Shown here: one piece after another, positions 8,458 through 56,824 of the stretch | Layout of the letters: every line of letters starts with the position of its first letter | Position numbering within the stretch: position 1 is the stretch's first letter | Program-made: the position numbers and the translations under genes | The notes under the pieces: generated by a model | Told to the model about the DNA's origin: nothing | The model's input: the letters and a program-made list of their open reading frames with translations, nothing else | Database searches by the model: none | NCBI RefSeq assembly: GCF_013391105.1 | Contig: NZ_CP058335.1 | Location: forward strand, 2,294,001-2,358,000 | From: Natronomonas salina | Lineage (GTDB): Archaea; Halobacteriota; Halobacteria; Halobacteriales; Haloarculaceae | DNA: 64,000 bases | Reading direction: 5' to 3'

Positions 8458-9510
8458 TCACTCCAGGACCCACGCGTCGTCGGGGTCGAACCCGACGGTC
8501 AGCCGGTCGGTTGCGGGCGGGTCGTCCAGCGCTACCACGACCCGCTGGCTCTCCCACTCGAGGTGCACCCGGGTCGTCTCCCCGAGGAACTCGCTGTGGA
8601 CCACGTCGCCGGTCAGCCGGTTCTCGCCGGCGTCGACCGCGAACGCGCCGGGGCGGACGCAGAAGGTCACCCGGCCGTCCGGCGGGGTCTCCACCCGAGA
8701 CAGTCGGAAATCGCTTCCCCCCACCCGGACCGACAACCCCTTCGTTTCACCTGGAGCCGCTGACCTGTCGGCGTCGACGACCCGACCATCGAAGACGTTG
8801 TTCTCGCCGAGGAACCCGGCGACGAACCGCGTTCGGGGACGGCGGTAGAGCTCCCGCGGGTAGCCGACCTGCTCGACGCGGCCGTCGGAGAGGACGGCCA
8901 CGCGGTCGGAGATGGCCATCGCCTCCGCCTGGTCGTGGGTGACGTAGACGGTCGTGACGCCGAGGTCCCGCTGGATCTCGCGGACGTCGCGGCGGAGGCG
9001 CTCGCGGAGGCGGGCGTCGAGGGCGCTCATCGGCTCGTCGAGCAGCAGGAGGTCGGGGCCGGGCGCCAGCGCCCGCGCGAGGGCGACGCGCTGCTGTTGC
9101 CCGCCGGAGAGCGCGGTCGGGTCGCGGTCCTCGAACCCGCCGAGGCCGACGAGGTCGAGCAGTTCGGCGACGCGGGCCGCGTCGGTGCCGCCGCCCGGCG
9201 GGTCGGCGAAGCGCAGGCCGTAGGCGACGTTCTCGCCGACGGTCATGTGCGGGAACAGCGCGTAGCTCTGGAAGACGATGCCGACGTCGCGGTCCTCCGG
9301 GGGGACGCCGGCGACGTCCGCGCCGCCGAAGCGGACCGTCCCCTCGGTCGGCGCCTCGAAGCCCGCCAGCAGGCGGAGCGTGGTCGTCTTCCCGCACCCC
9401 GAGGGCCCGACGAGCGTGAAGAACTCGCCGTCCTCGACGGTCAGCGAGACGTCCTCGAGAGCCGTCGTGGCGCCGTAGCGCCGCGAGACCCCGTCGAGTT
9501 CGACCTTCAT
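8458..9510 (-). CDS. thiQ: Thiamine ABC transporter ATP-binding protein
   Basis: A 350-residue ABC ATPase: Walker A GPSGCGKTTTLRLL (about 36-49), Q-loop GIVFQSYALFPHMTV, signature LSGGQQQRVALARAL, Walker B LLLLDEP and the H-loop VTHDQAEAMA. A C-terminal TOBE-like domain (about 235-350) is typical of the CUT1/Fe3+/spermidine/thiamine branch. The substrate is inferred from its neighbours: it follows a fused two-domain permease and a thiamine-type binding protein on the same strand, with 43 bp to the permease stop. An iron(III) or spermidine system is the main alternative. Confidence 0.78.
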   Translation of the reverse strand: MKVELDGVSRRYGATTALEDVSLTVEDGEFFTLVGPSGCGKTTTLRLLAGFEAPTEGTVRFGGADVAGVPPEDRDVGIVFQSYALFPHMTVGENVAYGLRFADPPGGGTDAARVAELLDLVGLGGFEDRDPTALSGGQQQRVALARALAPGPDLLLLDEPMSALDARLRERLRRDVREIQRDLGVTTVYVTHDQAEAMAISDRVAVLSDGRVEQVGYPRELYRRPRTRFVAGFLGENNVFDGRVVDADRSAAPGETKGLSVRVGGSDFRLSRVETPPDGRVTFCVRPGAFAVDAGENRLTGDVVHSEFLGETTRVHLEWESQRVVVALDDPPATDRLTVGFDPDDAWVLE

Positions 9511-50550: not shown

Positions 50551-50585
50551 CTCCAATCGAAACGAAGGGGTTGGTGGGTGGGAGG
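50551..50585 (+). repeat. Origin recognition box (ORB) downstream of orc1
   Basis: CTCCA-N3-GAAAC-N3-GGGGT with a following G-rich tail (TTGGTGGGTGGGAGG) matches the ORBs of the main origin closely. It lies between the convergent ends of ridA and orc1, about 2.4 kb from the main ORB pair, facing orc1. Confidence 0.75.
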
Positions 50586-50618: not shown

Positions 50619-52424
50619 TCAGTTGTCGAATCGCGCCTGGACGAACGGCTGGGCGTCCTCGACCTGTCCGATGCGGGAGTCCGAGAGGAGCACGGCCTCC
50701 GTCTCTTCCAGTGGAACCGAGAGGCTGATCTCCTTGGTGCGGCCGTAGCGGCCCTTCGAGACGACGACGGCGTTGACGATGCCGAGCATGTCGAGTTCGC
50801 TGATGAGGTCGGTCACTCGACGTTGGGTGAGCACGTCCGCGTCCATCTCCTGACAGAGGCGCTTGTAGATGTTGAACACCTCGCCCGTGTTCACGTTGTG
50901 GACGCCGTTCTTCTCGAGGAGGATCGTCGCGTAGAGGACGAGCTTCGACTGGGTGGGCAGGGTCCGGACGACCTCGACGACCCGATCGAGTTCGATCTTC
51001 TCCTGGGCCCGGCGGACGTGCTTCTCCTCGACGGTCTCGGTGCGGTCGCGCTCGGCGAGTTCGCCGGCGGTCCGGAGCAGGTCGAGGGCTCGACGGGCGT
51101 CGCCGTGCTCCTGGGCGGCGAAGGCCGCACAGAGCGGGATGACGTCTTCCGAGAGCGTGTCGCCCTTGAACGAGATCTCCGAGCGGTGCCGGAGGATGTC
51201 CCGGAGCTGCGTCGCGTCGTACGGCGGGAAGACGATCTCCTCCTCGCCGAGGCTCGACTTGACGCGGGGGTCGAGGAAGTCGGTGAACTTCAGGTCGTTC
51301 GAGATGCCCATGATGCTCACCCGGGAGTTCTCCAGCTCCGAGTTCATCCGCGAGAGGTTGTAGAGGGTGTCGTCGCCGGACTTCTCGACGAGCTTGTCGA
51401 TCTCGTCGAGCATGATGACCACGACGCGCTCGTGGTAGTCGACGGCGTCGAAGAACGTCGAGTAAACGCGGTCGGTCGGCCACCCCGTCATCGGCACCGG
51501 TTCGAACTCCTCGAGGTCGGCCTCGAGTTGCGTGATCTCGTTCTCCACCGCGGCGACGCTGTCGAACTCGGTGTCGGCGAGCGCGCCGTGGTCCTCGGCG
51601 GCCCGGTCCCGGAGGTCGCCGAGCTCCTCGAGTCGGTCCTCGATGTACGCCTCGTTCTTCTCGATGAACTTGTTGGCGAGCTGGGCGAGGACGCGGTACT
51701 GCGTGTCGGTGACCTCGCAGTTGATGTACTCGACCTCGCAGGGCACCTCGTACTTCTGGGAGGTGCTCTCGAGTTCCTCGCTGACGAACTTCGCGCTGGC
51801 GGTCTTGCCGGTCCCCGTCTTCCCGTAGATGAGGATGTTCGAGGGGGTCTCCCCGCGCAGCGCGGTCACGAGGATGGTCGCCATGTTGTTGATCTGCTCC
51901 TCGCGGTGGGGGAGCTCACGGGGTGTGTAGGAGGGACGCAGCACCTCCTTGTTCTCGAAGATGGGTTCGCCCTCCAGGAGGTCGTCGAAGAGCCCCCTGG
52001 ACGCCTCGTCGGTGTCGCCCGAGGCTGCGTCGGGGTCGGCGTCGAGATCCAGGTCCTCGAGGTCGACGTCCCCGGAGAACCCGTCGACGGTGTGGCCGGG
52101 GGCGGTCCCCTCCCCGCCGATCTCGTCGCCGGCGGGAGCCGTCTCGATGGATTCGCGGAGACCACTATCGCTCGGGTCGGGAGTGTCGCCGGAGCTGGCT
52201 GCGTTGCCGTCGATATCCGACCCCTCTGTTTCAACTGGAGTCCGATCGACGAATCCGGATGCGTTACCCGCTCCAGTAGTCTCGTGGCTGGAATCGTCGT
52301 CGACGGTATCGGCTTCGGTTCCAGTCGAACTCGTGTCCTCCTCCCCGTGGGCGGCTCGGTCGTCCTCGTCCCGGGATTCGACTTTGTGCTCCTCGGACGT
52401 GTCGGTGGAATCTCCCTCTGTCAT
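50619..52424 (-). CDS. orc1: Orc1/Cdc6 replication initiator of oriC1
   Basis: A 601-residue initiator that binds ORB sites and loads the MCM helicase. The first ~155 residues are a long acidic, low-complexity extension. The AAA+ core has Walker A LIYGKTGTGKTAS (about 200), Walker B VVVIMLDEIDKL (about 338) and sensor 1 SIMGISNDL; the C-terminal winged helix ends in TQRRVTDLISELDMLGIVNAVVV. The usual archaeal length is about 400, so the extension is notable. An ORB lies in the coding DNA of the extension (52217-52240) and another just upstream of the start codon (52435-52455), which suggests autoregulation. It faces away from the origin region. Confidence 0.95.
   Translation of the reverse strand: MTEGDSTDTSEEHKVESRDEDDRAAHGEEDTSSTGTEADTVDDDSSHETTGAGNASGFVDRTPVETEGSDIDGNAASSGDTPDPSDSGLRESIETAPAGDEIGGEGTAPGHTVDGFSGDVDLEDLDLDADPDAASGDTDEASRGLFDDLLEGEPIFENKEVLRPSYTPRELPHREEQINNMATILVTALRGETPSNILIYGKTGTGKTASAKFVSEELESTSQKYEVPCEVEYINCEVTDTQYRVLAQLANKFIEKNEAYIEDRLEELGDLRDRAAEDHGALADTEFDSVAAVENEITQLEADLEEFEPVPMTGWPTDRVYSTFFDAVDYHERVVVIMLDEIDKLVEKSGDDTLYNLSRMNSELENSRVSIMGISNDLKFTDFLDPRVKSSLGEEEIVFPPYDATQLRDILRHRSEISFKGDTLSEDVIPLCAAFAAQEHGDARRALDLLRTAGELAERDRTETVEEKHVRRAQEKIELDRVVEVVRTLPTQSKLVLYATILLEKNGVHNVNTGEVFNIYKRLCQEMDADVLTQRRVTDLISELDMLGIVNAVVVSKGRYGRTKEISLSVPLEETEAVLLSDSRIGQVEDAQPFVQARFDN
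52217..52240 (-). repeat. ORB inside the orc1 coding region
   Basis: On the minus strand, CTCCA-GTT-GAAAC-AGA-GGGGT-CGG, a full match to the window's ORB pattern. It encodes part of the acidic N-terminal extension (TPVETEGSD), a stretch free to drift, so the site may be kept by selection on the DNA. Confidence 0.65.
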
Positions 52425-52434
52425 TCGTGCTAGT

Positions 52435-52455
52435 ACCCCCCAGTTTCACGTGGAG
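52435..52455 (-). repeat. ORB at the orc1 promoter
   Basis: On the minus strand, CTCCA-CGT-GAAAC-TGG-GGGGT-A ends 11 bp before the orc1 ATG. It lies in the promoter or leader, so Orc1 binding here could repress its own gene. Confidence 0.7.
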
Positions 52456-52743: not shown

Positions 52744-52764
52744 ACACCGATGTTTCGGGTGGAA
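52744..52764 (-). repeat. Weaker ORB-like site
   Basis: On the minus strand, TTCCA-CCC-GAAAC-ATC-GGTGT: the core is kept but the G-string is poor. Confidence 0.45.
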
Positions 52765-53238: not shown

Positions 53239-53266
53239 CTCCAGGCGAAACGAAGGGGTAGGGGCC
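53239..53266 (+). repeat. Main right ORB with G-string
   Basis: CTCCA-GGC-GAAAC-GAA-GGGGT followed by AGGGG, right of the AT-rich zone and inverted relative to the left main ORB. Confidence 0.85.
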
Positions 53267-53613: not shown

Positions 53614-54255
53614 ATGGGACTGCTAACCGAACTCAAATCGAGTATCTCGAACGCGACGTCGAGCCTGTTCGCGGGGAGCGATCCGAAGCGGATCGGCATC
53701 TACGGCCCCCCGAACGCGGGTAAGACGACGCTCGCGAACCGTATCGCCAGAGACTGGACCGGCGACGCCGTCGGTCCGGAGAGCCACGTTCCCCACGAGA
53801 CGCGCCGCGCGCGTCGCAAGGAGAACGTCGAGATCAAGCGCAACGGCAAGTCGGTGACGATAGACGTCGTCGACACGCCGGGTGTGACCACCAAGGTGGA
53901 CTACAAGGAGTTCCTCGAACACGACATCGAGAAGGACGACGCCGTCCGCCGCTCCCGCGAGGCCACGGAGGGCGTCGCCGAGGCGATGCACTGGCTCCGC
54001 GAGGACGTCGACGGCGTCATCTACGTCCTCGACTCCACCGAGGACCCGTTCACGCAGGTCAACACGATGCTCATCGGCATCATCGAGAGCCAGAACCTGC
54101 CGGTGCTCATCTTCGCGAACAAGATAGACCTCGACGACTCGAGCGTCCAGCGGATCAGCAACGCCTTCCCGCAGCACGAGACGGTGCCGCTGTCGGCCCT
54201 CGAGGGGGACAACATGGACGAAGTGTACGACAAGATCGCGGAGTACTTCGGGTGA
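53614..54255 (+). CDS. Era-like GTPase of the origin cluster
   Basis: A 213-residue GTPase. G1 is IYGPPNAGKTTLANRI (about 29-44), G3 VVDTPGVTTK, G4 FANKIDLDD and G5 PLSALEG. The insert between G1 and G3 is rich in Arg/Lys (RRARRKENVEIKRNG). It lies next to the haloarchaeal oriC1 in other genomes and is called an origin-associated or Era-like GTP-binding protein (OapA/ArvA group, as far as I recall). The link to replication is by conserved context only. Followed at 4 bp by oapB. Confidence 0.88.
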   Translation: MGLLTELKSSISNATSSLFAGSDPKRIGIYGPPNAGKTTLANRIARDWTGDAVGPESHVPHETRRARRKENVEIKRNGKSVTIDVVDTPGVTTKVDYKEFLEHDIEKDDAVRRSREATEGVAEAMHWLREDVDGVIYVLDSTEDPFTQVNTMLIGIIESQNLPVLIFANKIDLDDSSVQRISNAFPQHETVPLSALEGDNMDEVYDKIAEYFG

Positions 54256-54259
54256 TATC

Positions 54260-54661
54260 ATGCCCGAGATAACTACAGGCGACGGCGACGACGGACTCGC
54301 GGACGGCATCCAGATCGACATGATCAGCGCCGAGCGGATGGAGGACATGCGGACGATGGAGAAGATCCGCCTGATCCTCGACGGCGTCCACGACGGCAAC
54401 ATCGTCATCCTCGAGTCCGGCCTGGAGCCGGAGGAGGAGTCGAAGCTCATCGAGGTGACGATGTCCGAGATCAACCCCGACGGGTTCACCGGCATCGAGA
54501 TCGAGACCTACCCCGGCGGCGACGGCGGGGACAGCAGCTTCCTCGGCCGCCTCATGGGCAACGACGAGCCGAACAAGCTCACCGTCATCGGGCCGGCCAA
54601 CCGCATCGAGACGCTCCACAAGGACGAGACGCTCATCAGCACGCTCATCACGCGGACGTGA
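54260..54661 (+). CDS. oapB: OapB/ArvB family protein (DUF2073)
   Basis: A 133-residue protein: acidic head, then IQIDMISAERMEDMRTMEKIRLILDGVHDGNIVILESGLEPEEESKLIEVTMSEINPDGFTGIEIETYP, the DUF2073 core, and a C-terminal strand NKLTVIGPANRIETL. The fold is a small alpha/beta domain with no catalytic motif. It is always found beside the Era-like GTPase and OapC at archaeal origins of this type. Confidence 0.88.
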   Translation: MPEITTGDGDDGLADGIQIDMISAERMEDMRTMEKIRLILDGVHDGNIVILESGLEPEEESKLIEVTMSEINPDGFTGIEIETYPGGDGGDSSFLGRLMGNDEPNKLTVIGPANRIETLHKDETLISTLITRT

Positions 54662-54668
54662 CCTAGCG

Positions 54669-55481
54669 ATGCCTCACCAGTGTACCGGCTGCGGCCACAC
54701 GTTCGCCGACGGCTCCAAGGAGATGCTCTCGGGCTGTCCGGAGTGTGGCGGCAACAAGTTCCAGTTCCGGCCCGAGGGGGCGTCACTGCCCGACGACCCG
54801 AGCGAGACCGACTCGGGAGCGGCGCAATCTGGCCCCGATAGCCAAGAGCCGTCTCCCGACGCGGAGCCGCCGGAACCGGATGGAAGCTCTTCGTCGGTGG
54901 CCGAGACGGTCGGCCGTGCCACGACGAAGGTCCGGGACTTCGTCTCCTCGGACCCCGCGGAGATCGACTCGCCGGACCCGGAGGCGTCCTGGCCGAGCGA
55001 GCGCGAGGAGGCTGCCGGTTCCGGGGCTTCCGGCACCGCCGACCCGTCCCCGGACCCCTCCCCTTCGAGTGGAACCGACGACGACATAATCGACGCCGAC
55101 GCGCGGCGCGAGGCCGTCGAGACCGACGAGGACGACGCCCAGGCGAGCGCACGGTCCGACGTCGTCTCCGACGAGGAACTGGACGGCGCCGACGCCGTCG
55201 AGGGGCGCGACCCTCTGGCCGGCGACGCCGCCGGTGGACTGGCCGGTTCGGGCGGCGAGGTGGTCAGCGAACCGTCCGAGGCGGACCCCGACATCGCGGA
55301 GCTCCGCGAGCAGCTCAACGACCAGTTCGAATCCATCAAGATCGTCGAGCCGGGCCAGTACGAGCTCAACCTGATGGAGCTGTACGACCGCGAGGAGTAC
55401 ATCATCGCACTCCAGGAGAACGGCCGGTACGTCATCCAGGTCCCCGAGCAGTGGATCGGCGACCAGCCGGGCGACAGCTGA
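54669..55481 (+). CDS. oapC: OapC/ArvC family zinc-ribbon protein
   Basis: A 270-residue protein. The N-terminal zinc ribbon is CTGCGHTF and CPECGGNKFQF (residues about 5-30). A long acidic, disordered region follows (about 35-200), and the C-terminal domain is LREQLNDQFESIKIVEPGQYELNLMELYDREEYIIALQENGRYVIQVPEQW. Third gene of the GTPase-oapB-oapC operon. Its coding DNA contains a degenerate ORB-like stretch at about 55065-55080. The sequence after its stop codon holds the second ORB pair. Confidence 0.85.
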   Translation: MPHQCTGCGHTFADGSKEMLSGCPECGGNKFQFRPEGASLPDDPSETDSGAAQSGPDSQEPSPDAEPPEPDGSSSSVAETVGRATTKVRDFVSSDPAEIDSPDPEASWPSEREEAAGSGASGTADPSPDPSPSSGTDDDIIDADARREAVETDEDDAQASARSDVVSDEELDGADAVEGRDPLAGDAAGGLAGSGGEVVSEPSEADPDIAELREQLNDQFESIKIVEPGQYELNLMELYDREEYIIALQENGRYVIQVPEQWIGDQPGDS

Positions 55482-55575
55482 CACGACCCTCCCTCATCCC
55501 ACGGTTCCGAAGTCGCGTTACCGACGACAATCTTCACCCAGTAGCCTGCTCAGCAGTTCAAGACCCTTCCACTCG

Positions 55576-55648
55576 ACCCCACCGTTTCGGGTCGAGAACT
55601 AGTGTAGAGCTGAGTGATAAGACAACTGTCCACCCGAAACTCTGCGGT
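55576..55648. repeat. Second outward-facing ORB-like pair around a low-GC spacer
   Basis: On the minus strand at 55576-55596: CTCGA-CCC-GAAAC-GGT-GGGGT, one mismatch to the window's ORB pattern. On the plus strand at 55628-55648: GTCCA-CCC-GAAAC-TCT-GCGGT, two mismatches. They face apart, as at the main origin, around 31 bp with low GC and one CTAG. The pair lies in the 218 bp between the convergent ends of oapC and the second orc gene; the rest of that gap shows nothing else. Confidence 0.6.
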
Positions 55649-55699
55649 GAGCCGCCGGTCTGGTCGTCGAACGGCTGATTCGCTCGCCGCCCCAGCCAG

Positions 55700-56824
55700 T
55701 CACTCCTCGAGACGGTCGAGGATCGCCGAGGGCTCGTAGGCGAGCGACAGCGACCGCGACCGGCCGCGCCCCTCGACGTCGGTGTACTCGGCGTCGATGA
55801 GCCCGAGCTGGTCGAGCTTGTTGATAATCTCGGAATAGCGGGTGTACCCGAGGTCGGTCTCCTCGCTGAAGGCCTCGTAAACCTCGCCAGCCTGCTCGCC
55901 GTCGTGCTCGGCGAGGACGCGGACCAGCGCGGTCTCGGAGTCCGAGAGCCCGCGGAGGTGCCGGGAGAGGTGGACGTACTTCGCCTTCTCGTAGGCCTCG
56001 TCGACGTCCTCGGTGCCGACCTCGGCGGAGCCGCGCATCTCGGCGTTCAGGCCGGCCCGCCGGAGCAGGTCGATGCCCACGCGGAGGTCGCCGCCGCTGT
56101 CGGCGGTGTGGGCGGCGACCCGGTCGAGGACCGCCGGCCCGACGGCGTCCTCACGGAAGCCGCGCTTGACGCGCTCCTGGAGGATGTCGACGATCTCGCG
56201 CTCGCCGTAGGCGGAGAAGTACACCTCCTCGGGCCGGAACACCGACTGGACGCGGCTGTCGAGTTCGTCGATGACGTTCAGGTCGAGGTCAGAGGAGACG
56301 ACGATGACGCCGATCTTCGCGCCGGAGTGGGCCTCGTGGGCGCGGAGCAGCGAGTACAGCGTGTCGGAGGCCTCGTCCTCGTAGAAGAGGTAGTTGACGT
56401 CGTCGAGCGCGACGACGAGCACCTCGTCCTCCTCGACGAGGCGGTCGGTGATCTGCCCGAAGAGCTTCTTAAAGGAGATGCCCGAGGTCGGCGGTTCGTA
56501 CTCGAAGAGCCCCTCGAACAGCCGCGAGAAGACGGCGTAGCGGGTCGAGTCGACCTGGCAGTTGACGCGGACGACCTCGACGTCGCTGACGCTCGTCAGC
56601 TCGTCGAACAGCTTGTGGACGGCGGTGGTCTTGCCGGTCCCCGGCGGCCCGCGGGCCATCACGTTCAGCGGGCGCGAACCCCTGACCGCGGGGCGGAGCG
56701 CGTACTTCAGCGTCTCCATCTGTTCGTCGCGGTGCAGGAACGCCTCGGGGAGGTAGTCGAGCTCGAGGACGTGCTCGTCGCGGAACACAGATTCGTCCCA
56801 CGAGAGCATGTCGTCGTCCGCCAT
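55700..56824 (-). CDS. cdc6: Second Orc1/Cdc6 family protein
   Basis: A 374-residue initiator-family AAA+ protein without the acidic extension. Walker A is MARGPPGTGKTTAVHKLF (about 57-74), Walker B VLVVALDDVNYLF (about 138), and sensor 1 GVIVVSSDLDLNVID. The C-terminal winged helix is EEVYEAFSEETDLGYTRYSEIINKLDQLGLIDAEY. Here Walker B has DD instead of the usual DE. Many haloarchaea carry several Orc paralogues; this one sits within 3 kb of oriC1 and next to its own ORB-like pair. A TTAAG box is about 27 bp upstream. Confidence 0.9.
   Translation of the reverse strand: MADDDMLSWDESVFRDEHVLELDYLPEAFLHRDEQMETLKYALRPAVRGSRPLNVMARGPPGTGKTTAVHKLFDELTSVSDVEVVRVNCQVDSTRYAVFSRLFEGLFEYEPPTSGISFKKLFGQITDRLVEEDEVLVVALDDVNYLFYEDEASDTLYSLLRAHEAHSGAKIGVIVVSSDLDLNVIDELDSRVQSVFRPEEVYFSAYGEREIVDILQERVKRGFREDAVGPAVLDRVAAHTADSGGDLRVGIDLLRRAGLNAEMRGSAEVGTEDVDEAYEKAKYVHLSRHLRGLSDSETALVRVLAEHDGEQAGEVYEAFSEETDLGYTRYSEIINKLDQLGLIDAEYTDVEGRGRSRSLSLAYEPSAILDRLEE

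Follow-up and report, generated by a model that had tools for sequence, protein, structure and literature searches.

A predicted Orc1 box between oapC and orc2 in Natronomonas and its possible place in a satellite ORB set around oriC1

Introduction

Haloarchaeal oriC1 origins consist of inverted ORBs, with a G-string, around an AT-rich region (PMC3936714; PMC3528665), and in Haloarcula hispanica mutation of the G-string of either oriC1 ORB abolishes the origin (PMC3936714). ORBs are also found elsewhere. In the same organism, the ORB-rich region oriC2D, located downstream of cdc6E, lowers the activity of oriC2, likely by titration; it holds 11 ORBs in 722 bp, and its counterpart in Halorubrum lacusprofundi holds three (PMC3936714). 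Many other haloarchaeal orc genes have also been noted to have ORBs downstream (PMC3936714; PMC3528665). The published ORB survey was limited to intergenic regions flanking orc genes (PMC3528665), and boxes inside coding genes would therefore be missed by it. In bacteria, removal of six DnaA-box clusters outside the origin of Bacillus subtilis results in early initiation (PMC5295017). Archaeal safeguards against excess origin firing are poorly known, with one haloarchaeal titration region described in the literature searched.

The window analysed here is a stretch of 64,000 nucleotides from a Natronomonas-like genome of 3.75 Mb, and it includes oriC1, its associated initiator gene orc1 and a second orc1/cdc6 gene, orc2. 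The initial annotation had described two ORB-like sites in the gap between the 3′ ends of oapC and orc2 as a miniature pair built like the main origin, and had offered four readings: a second binding site for Orc1, a dormant mini-origin, a site read by the second Orc protein, or a control element for the oapC and orc ends. As an ORB downstream of an orc gene, the gap site is a small example of a kind that is already known. For the boxes in the coding linkers of orc1 and oapC, and for the box pair in the DNA polymerase gene considered below, no description was found in the open-licence literature searched, and an earlier description elsewhere is possible.

Sequence and chance expectation of the gap sites

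The features of the gap are as follows (window coordinates).

55482–55699, no strand: gap between the convergent 3′ ends of oapC and orc2; 218 bp (3–457 bp in relatives)
55576–55596, minus strand: left ORB-like site, CTCGACCCGAAACGGTGGGGT; one mismatch to CTCCA-N3-GAAAC-N3-GGGGT; conserved predicted accessory box
55597–55627, no strand: spacer of the two sites; 31 bp, 39% GC, contains ACTAGT (CTAG)
55628–55648, plus strand: right ORB-like site, GTCCACCCGAAACTCTGCGGT; two mismatches, one of them in the G-string; weak and unconserved

The coordinates, strands, outward orientation and mismatch counts of both sites were all confirmed, and both G-strings point outward. The left box differs from the core by a C-to-G change at core position 4, and the G-string of the right site reads GCGGT and is broken. 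The earlier judgement that the match is better than chance also stands, as two sites with at most two mismatches never occurred together when the gap was dinucleotide-shuffled 20,000 times, and any such site occurred in just 13 of the shuffles (one shuffle with a one-mismatch site and 12 in which the best site had two). Across the whole genome, the ORB core was found 9, 1, 15 and 63 times at zero, one, two and three mismatches, compared with 0, 0, 2 and 64 times for a reversed-pattern control, and the sole one-mismatch ORB is the left gap site. Such pairs proved uncommon in the genome: among the 25 sites with at most two mismatches, only two pairs lie less than 100 bp apart, namely the gap pair and an exact pair at 2359383/2359440, and both face outward.

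The two gap sites are of unequal quality. Scored with a weight matrix trained on 82 sites taken from other genomes in the genus, the left site reaches 24.7 bits, close to the 24.1 bits of the orc1-promoter box, although its score is slightly raised by the inclusion of the relatives' gap boxes in the training set; the right site, at 8.6 bits, lies in the noise range. Judged by the ORB core (CTCCA/TTCCA-N3-GAAAC-N3-GGGGT) and the G-string, the left site classes as an ORB and the right site does not. The gap thus holds one good and one poor predicted ORB, for which the term pair is an overstatement. The outward orientation and the low-GC spacer with CTAG are as described; the spacer measures 31 bp at 39% GC, and that of the main ORB pair at oriC1 223 bp at 55% GC.

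The gap in relatives with the same gene order

Eighteen other genomes of the genus have a readable gap, whose length ranges from 3 to 457 bp and falls below 60 bp in eight. Conservation of the pair among relatives with the same gene order was not borne out, as an outward pair was found in none of these 18 gaps and only the left box recurs. It does so on the same strand, clearly in three genomes (TTCGACCCGAAACGGAGGGGT in G005, TTCGACCCGAAACAGAGGGGA in G010 and TTCGACCCGAAACAAAGGGGA in G011) and weakly in two (TTCGACTCGAAACCGAGTGGT in G003 and TTCGAGTCGAAGGAGAGGGGT in G004). The three clear copies share the form YTCGACCCGAAAC-N3-GGGGW and keep 13–14 of the 15 core bases, while their flanks do not align except between G010 and G011, which are close relatives, so that the recurrences are not all independent. 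The gaps of G010 and G011 also hold a plus-strand box, and in both the resulting pair faces inward. When searched as YTCGAN3GAAACN3GGGGW, this variant gave 13 matches in 20 genomes, four of which lie in the oapC-orc2 gap, a region that amounts to about 3 kb of the roughly 60 Mb summed.

In four further relatives (G001, G007, G013 and G019), a minus-strand box is located in the adjoining oapC linker instead of the gap, and the window genome has both. The genomes with the linker box are nearly complementary to those with the gap box. Since about half of the relatives have neither, the position is dispensable. What about half of the genus conserves is a single predicted minus-strand box, placed either in the gap or in the oapC linker, and not a pair.

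The TTCGA variant was considered as a general second class of ORB and rejected, as its other matches in the genus are scattered and two of them lie in one genome beside plasmid-type primase or MCM genes. In that genome (G004; loci L191:4113 and L192:3777), both variants adjoin plasmid-type primase genes and one is also near an MCM gene, which suggests integrated replicons with related boxes.

ORBs around oriC1

All nine exact ORBs of the genome fall within 2302736–2383172, that is, in 80 kb or about 2% of the genome, around oriC1. The genes and boxes of this region are listed below, in window coordinates unless genome coordinates are stated.

8736–8756, minus strand: exact ORB in the reading frame of an ABC-transporter ATPase, reading PGETKG; 44 kb from oriC1
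50551–50571, plus strand: exact ORB in the gap next to the orc1 3′ end; G002, G003, G004, G008, G016 and G019 have one in a similar place
50619–52424, minus strand: orc1, the oriC1-associated initiator gene (NCBIfam NF001625)
52220–52240, minus strand: exact ORB in the coding N-terminal linker of orc1, reading TPVETEGS; counterparts in most of the genus
52435–52455, minus strand: exact ORB just upstream of the orc1 start codon (promoter)
52744–52764, minus strand: weaker ORB between orc1 and oriC1; two mismatches, 19.0 bits
52995–53015, minus strand: left ORB of the main oriC1 pair, exact
53239–53259, plus strand: right ORB of the main oriC1 pair, exact
53614–54255, plus strand: oapA-like GTPase gene
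54260–54661, plus strand: oapB (PF09846)
54669–55481, plus strand: oapC (PF09845)
55054–55074, minus strand: ORB-like site in the oapC coding linker; 25.1 bits; same-strand counterparts in four relatives
55700–56824, minus strand: orc2, the second orc1/cdc6 gene (NCBIfam NF001626)
Genome 2359383–2359403 (minus strand) and 2359440–2359460 (plus strand): outward ORB pair in the DP1 gene; exact, identical boxes CTCCAGTCGAAACGGAGGGGT; 36-bp spacer
Genome 2382878–2383172: further outward ORB pair in a gap 36 kb from oriC1; 274 bp from start to start, near the spacing of the origin pair; one box exact, the other with two mismatches, one being C/T at the first base

A layout is repeated among the other genomes of the genus: a plus-strand box at the orc1 3′ end, minus-strand boxes in the orc1 N-terminal linker and promoter, the main pair (minus/plus), sometimes a minus-strand box in oapC or the gap, and the DP1 pair. 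Where the other genomes of the genus are assembled in few contigs, their exact ORBs are almost always found no further than about 30 kb from oriC1, and those beyond that distance stay within about 100 kb. All three genomes from one genus of another family (G351, G161 and G395) carry an extra exact ORB, which is about 185–193 kb from oriC1 and on the opposite side from DP1.

A different picture is seen at orc2. Of 68 haloarchaeal loci at which orc2 does not adjoin oapC, 63 showed no ORB with at most two mismatches to the CTCCA core in the flanks covered, which extend up to 10 kb. Predicted ORBs thus accompany oriC1 and not orc2.

An outward pair inside the DP1 gene

A mini-pair of the design originally described does exist, but it lies inside the DP1 gene, 9.8 kb from the gap sites and 1.4 kb past the window end, and not in the oapC-orc2 gap. 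Its host frame encodes DP1, the DNA polymerase D small subunit (NF003116, E 7e-290), and the pair sits in a coding linker reading DPSVSTG...SPVETEGS; the peptide TPVETEGS at the orc1-linker ORB resembles that of this site. In the window genome the spacer has 64% GC. The two pairs have in common two outward boxes, a short spacer and a position near oriC1, whereas the exact boxes, 36-bp spacer, coding linker and conservation across Halobacteria of the DP1 pair are all lacking at the gap.

A perfect outward close pair was found in 137 of 391 Halobacteria genomes, representing 41 of 86 genera, as one copy per genome except for one genome with two, and a reversed-pattern control gave none in the same 391 genomes. 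Elsewhere in the phylum, the pair occurred in 0 of 312 non-Halobacteria genomes, compared with 26 of 81 Halobacteria. The listed matches have lengths of 73, 76 or 88 bp, corresponding to calculated spacers of 33, 36 or 48 bp that differ by multiples of three, and among them nearly all genomes have a spacing of 33–36 bp. The pair was inside DP1 at all 30 loci examined. Of 30 further genomes, mostly selected for giving no match to the exact pair, the majority keep one or two near-exact DP1 boxes, 54 or 57 bp from start to start. About 3–4.5 kb separate the pair from the main ORB pair in 14 genomes of nine genera, which is explained by DP1 usually adjoining orc1; with no more than about 3 kb between the two genes in 25 of 29 genomes, exceptions are too few for a comparison of distance. 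In Natronomonas genomes with DP1 and oriC1 on one contig, DP1 is about 11–25 kb away, or more in G007, and most of these genomes retain the pair.

Codon use indicates what is conserved. A peptide-level search of 48 DP1 genes recovered both peptide motifs in 21, of which 19 are from this genus. At the box positions, GTT is used in 20 of 20 cases (against 7.8% elsewhere in the gene), CCA in 17 of 17 (5.3%), GGA in 20 of 21 (6.7%), GAA in 21 of 21 (25%) and GGG in 21 of 21 (21%), and the peptide varies at the N positions of the box. The DP1 genes in this comparison are related, which makes the binomial p values too small, but the bias still departs strongly from ordinary codon use. An explanation of the pair by constraint on the protein was rejected, given the fixation of GTT, CCA and GGA, each at 5–8% in the rest of the gene. 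Because rare codons are fixed at the box positions, the DP1 pair is considered to be under selection at the level of DNA, with the DNA and not the peptide conserved.

Weighing the explanations

Of the four readings proposed at the outset, a second binding site for Orc1 has fared best: relatives retain the left box on the same strand and the exact ORBs cluster at oriC1, but the right site is weak. In an elaborated form of this reading, to which we give roughly even chances, the gap site is an accessory Orc1-binding element in a satellite ORB set around oriC1 that buffers the initiator, and is not an origin. It is somewhat unlikely, by comparison, that the site is a drifting remnant, with a left box that is either a relic of an ancestral function or of recent origin, a right box that is a product of chance, and neither of consequence now. 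The outward pair is unrepeated in relatives, the right site scores as noise, and the gap is often too short for any box; yet the left box is the only one-mismatch box of the genome, and G005, G010 and G011 retain nearly its entire core within flanks that cannot be aligned with the window genome. Very improbable is a role in chromosome organisation, in which Orc1 bound at many sites near oriC1 would cluster or tether the origin region. The boxes ring oriC1 over tens of kilobases, also inside genes, and the spacing of the DP1 pair is near-fixed across the class, but to our knowledge no such role of Orc1 is known in haloarchaea.

The remaining three of the initial readings have lost ground. Haloarchaea are known to have dormant origins, and outward boxes around a 39% GC spacer with CTAG would suit a minimal second origin at which two Orc1 molecules load helicase on the AT-rich 31 bp. 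This is nevertheless the most doubtful of the readings, since one G-string is broken, where both are essential at the Har. hispanica oriC1 (PMC3936714), the pair is unconserved, and the conserved DP1 mini-pair has a spacer of 64% GC, so that the design needs no melting region. The spacer is also far shorter than that of oriC1, the right box is weak, eight of the 18 gaps are below 60 bp, and two relatives have an inward pair instead, all of which speaks against a mini-origin built like the main origin. A site for Orc2, for example an autoregulatory one, is disfavoured and very improbable: the site adjoins orc2 and its TTCGA variant departs from the Orc1 consensus, but it stands at the 3′ end of the gene and not at the promoter, and Orc2-specific boxes were rejected because ORBs with the CTCCA core, the one scanned for, are generally absent near orc2 when the gene lies away from oriC1; an Orc2 motif of another kind is conceivable. 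A control element that terminates transcription or shapes mRNA 3′ ends where the oapC and orc2 transcripts converge is held to be just as improbable. The left site also forms an 8-bp hairpin (CTCGACCC/GGGTCGAG, −13.9 kcal/mol, z −1.9), and on the minus strand the two gap sites can base-pair with each other; against this, G005 and G010 keep the box but lack the hairpin arm, no T-run follows, and the folding energies are just about 2 sd beyond those of shuffles, on which grounds the hairpin was discarded.

Proposed role of the satellite boxes

The left box probably belongs to the Orc1-box family and to the satellite set of oriC1, whose positions are the orc1 3′ end, the orc1 linker, the orc1 promoter, the oapC linker, the gap and the DP1 pair. 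Orc1, the product of the gene at oriC1, would bind these boxes, which may then compete with the two essential oriC1 ORBs for initiator or hold a local reserve of it; in either case, they could damp or time the firing of oriC1. The right box would be a weak neighbour that may add little. This buffering is proposed by analogy with oriC2D and the B. subtilis DnaA-box clusters, and one or two gap boxes are few for titration, given the eleven ORBs of the oriC2D region (PMC3936714).

More tentatively, and with slightly less than even confidence, the outward pair in the DP1 linker, kept by codon choice, may be an origin-control element found class-wide in Halobacteria, which together with the satellite boxes in the orc1 linker, the oapC linker and the gap would buffer initiator or time initiation, and which may couple the level of initiator to polymerase expression. 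The pair is single-copy and near-fixed in spacing, in a replicative polymerase gene of most Halobacteria, and its boxes can be separated from the protein by synonymous recoding.

Comparison with known systems

The gap resembles oriC2D in that its ORBs are found downstream of an orc/cdc6 gene but not in the origin itself, and that titration of the initiator is proposed. It differs in number, with one good and one weak ORB in place of 11, and it adjoins orc2, and not the gene of its presumed binder, Orc1. With haloarchaeal oriC1, the gap sites share the ORB family and the outward orientation, whereas the 31-bp spacer, the weak right box, the position at a gene 3′ end and the lack of conservation set them apart. 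A more distant likeness is to the oriC-proximal DnaA-box clusters of B. subtilis (PMC5295017) and to datA of Escherichia coli, where initiator boxes outside the origin are likewise proposed to limit free or active initiator; these systems use bacterial DnaA and have many boxes per cluster, making the parallel one of analogy and not of homology. If the proposal is correct, the DP1 pair and the satellite boxes would constitute an archaeal functional counterpart of datA and the DnaA-box clusters.
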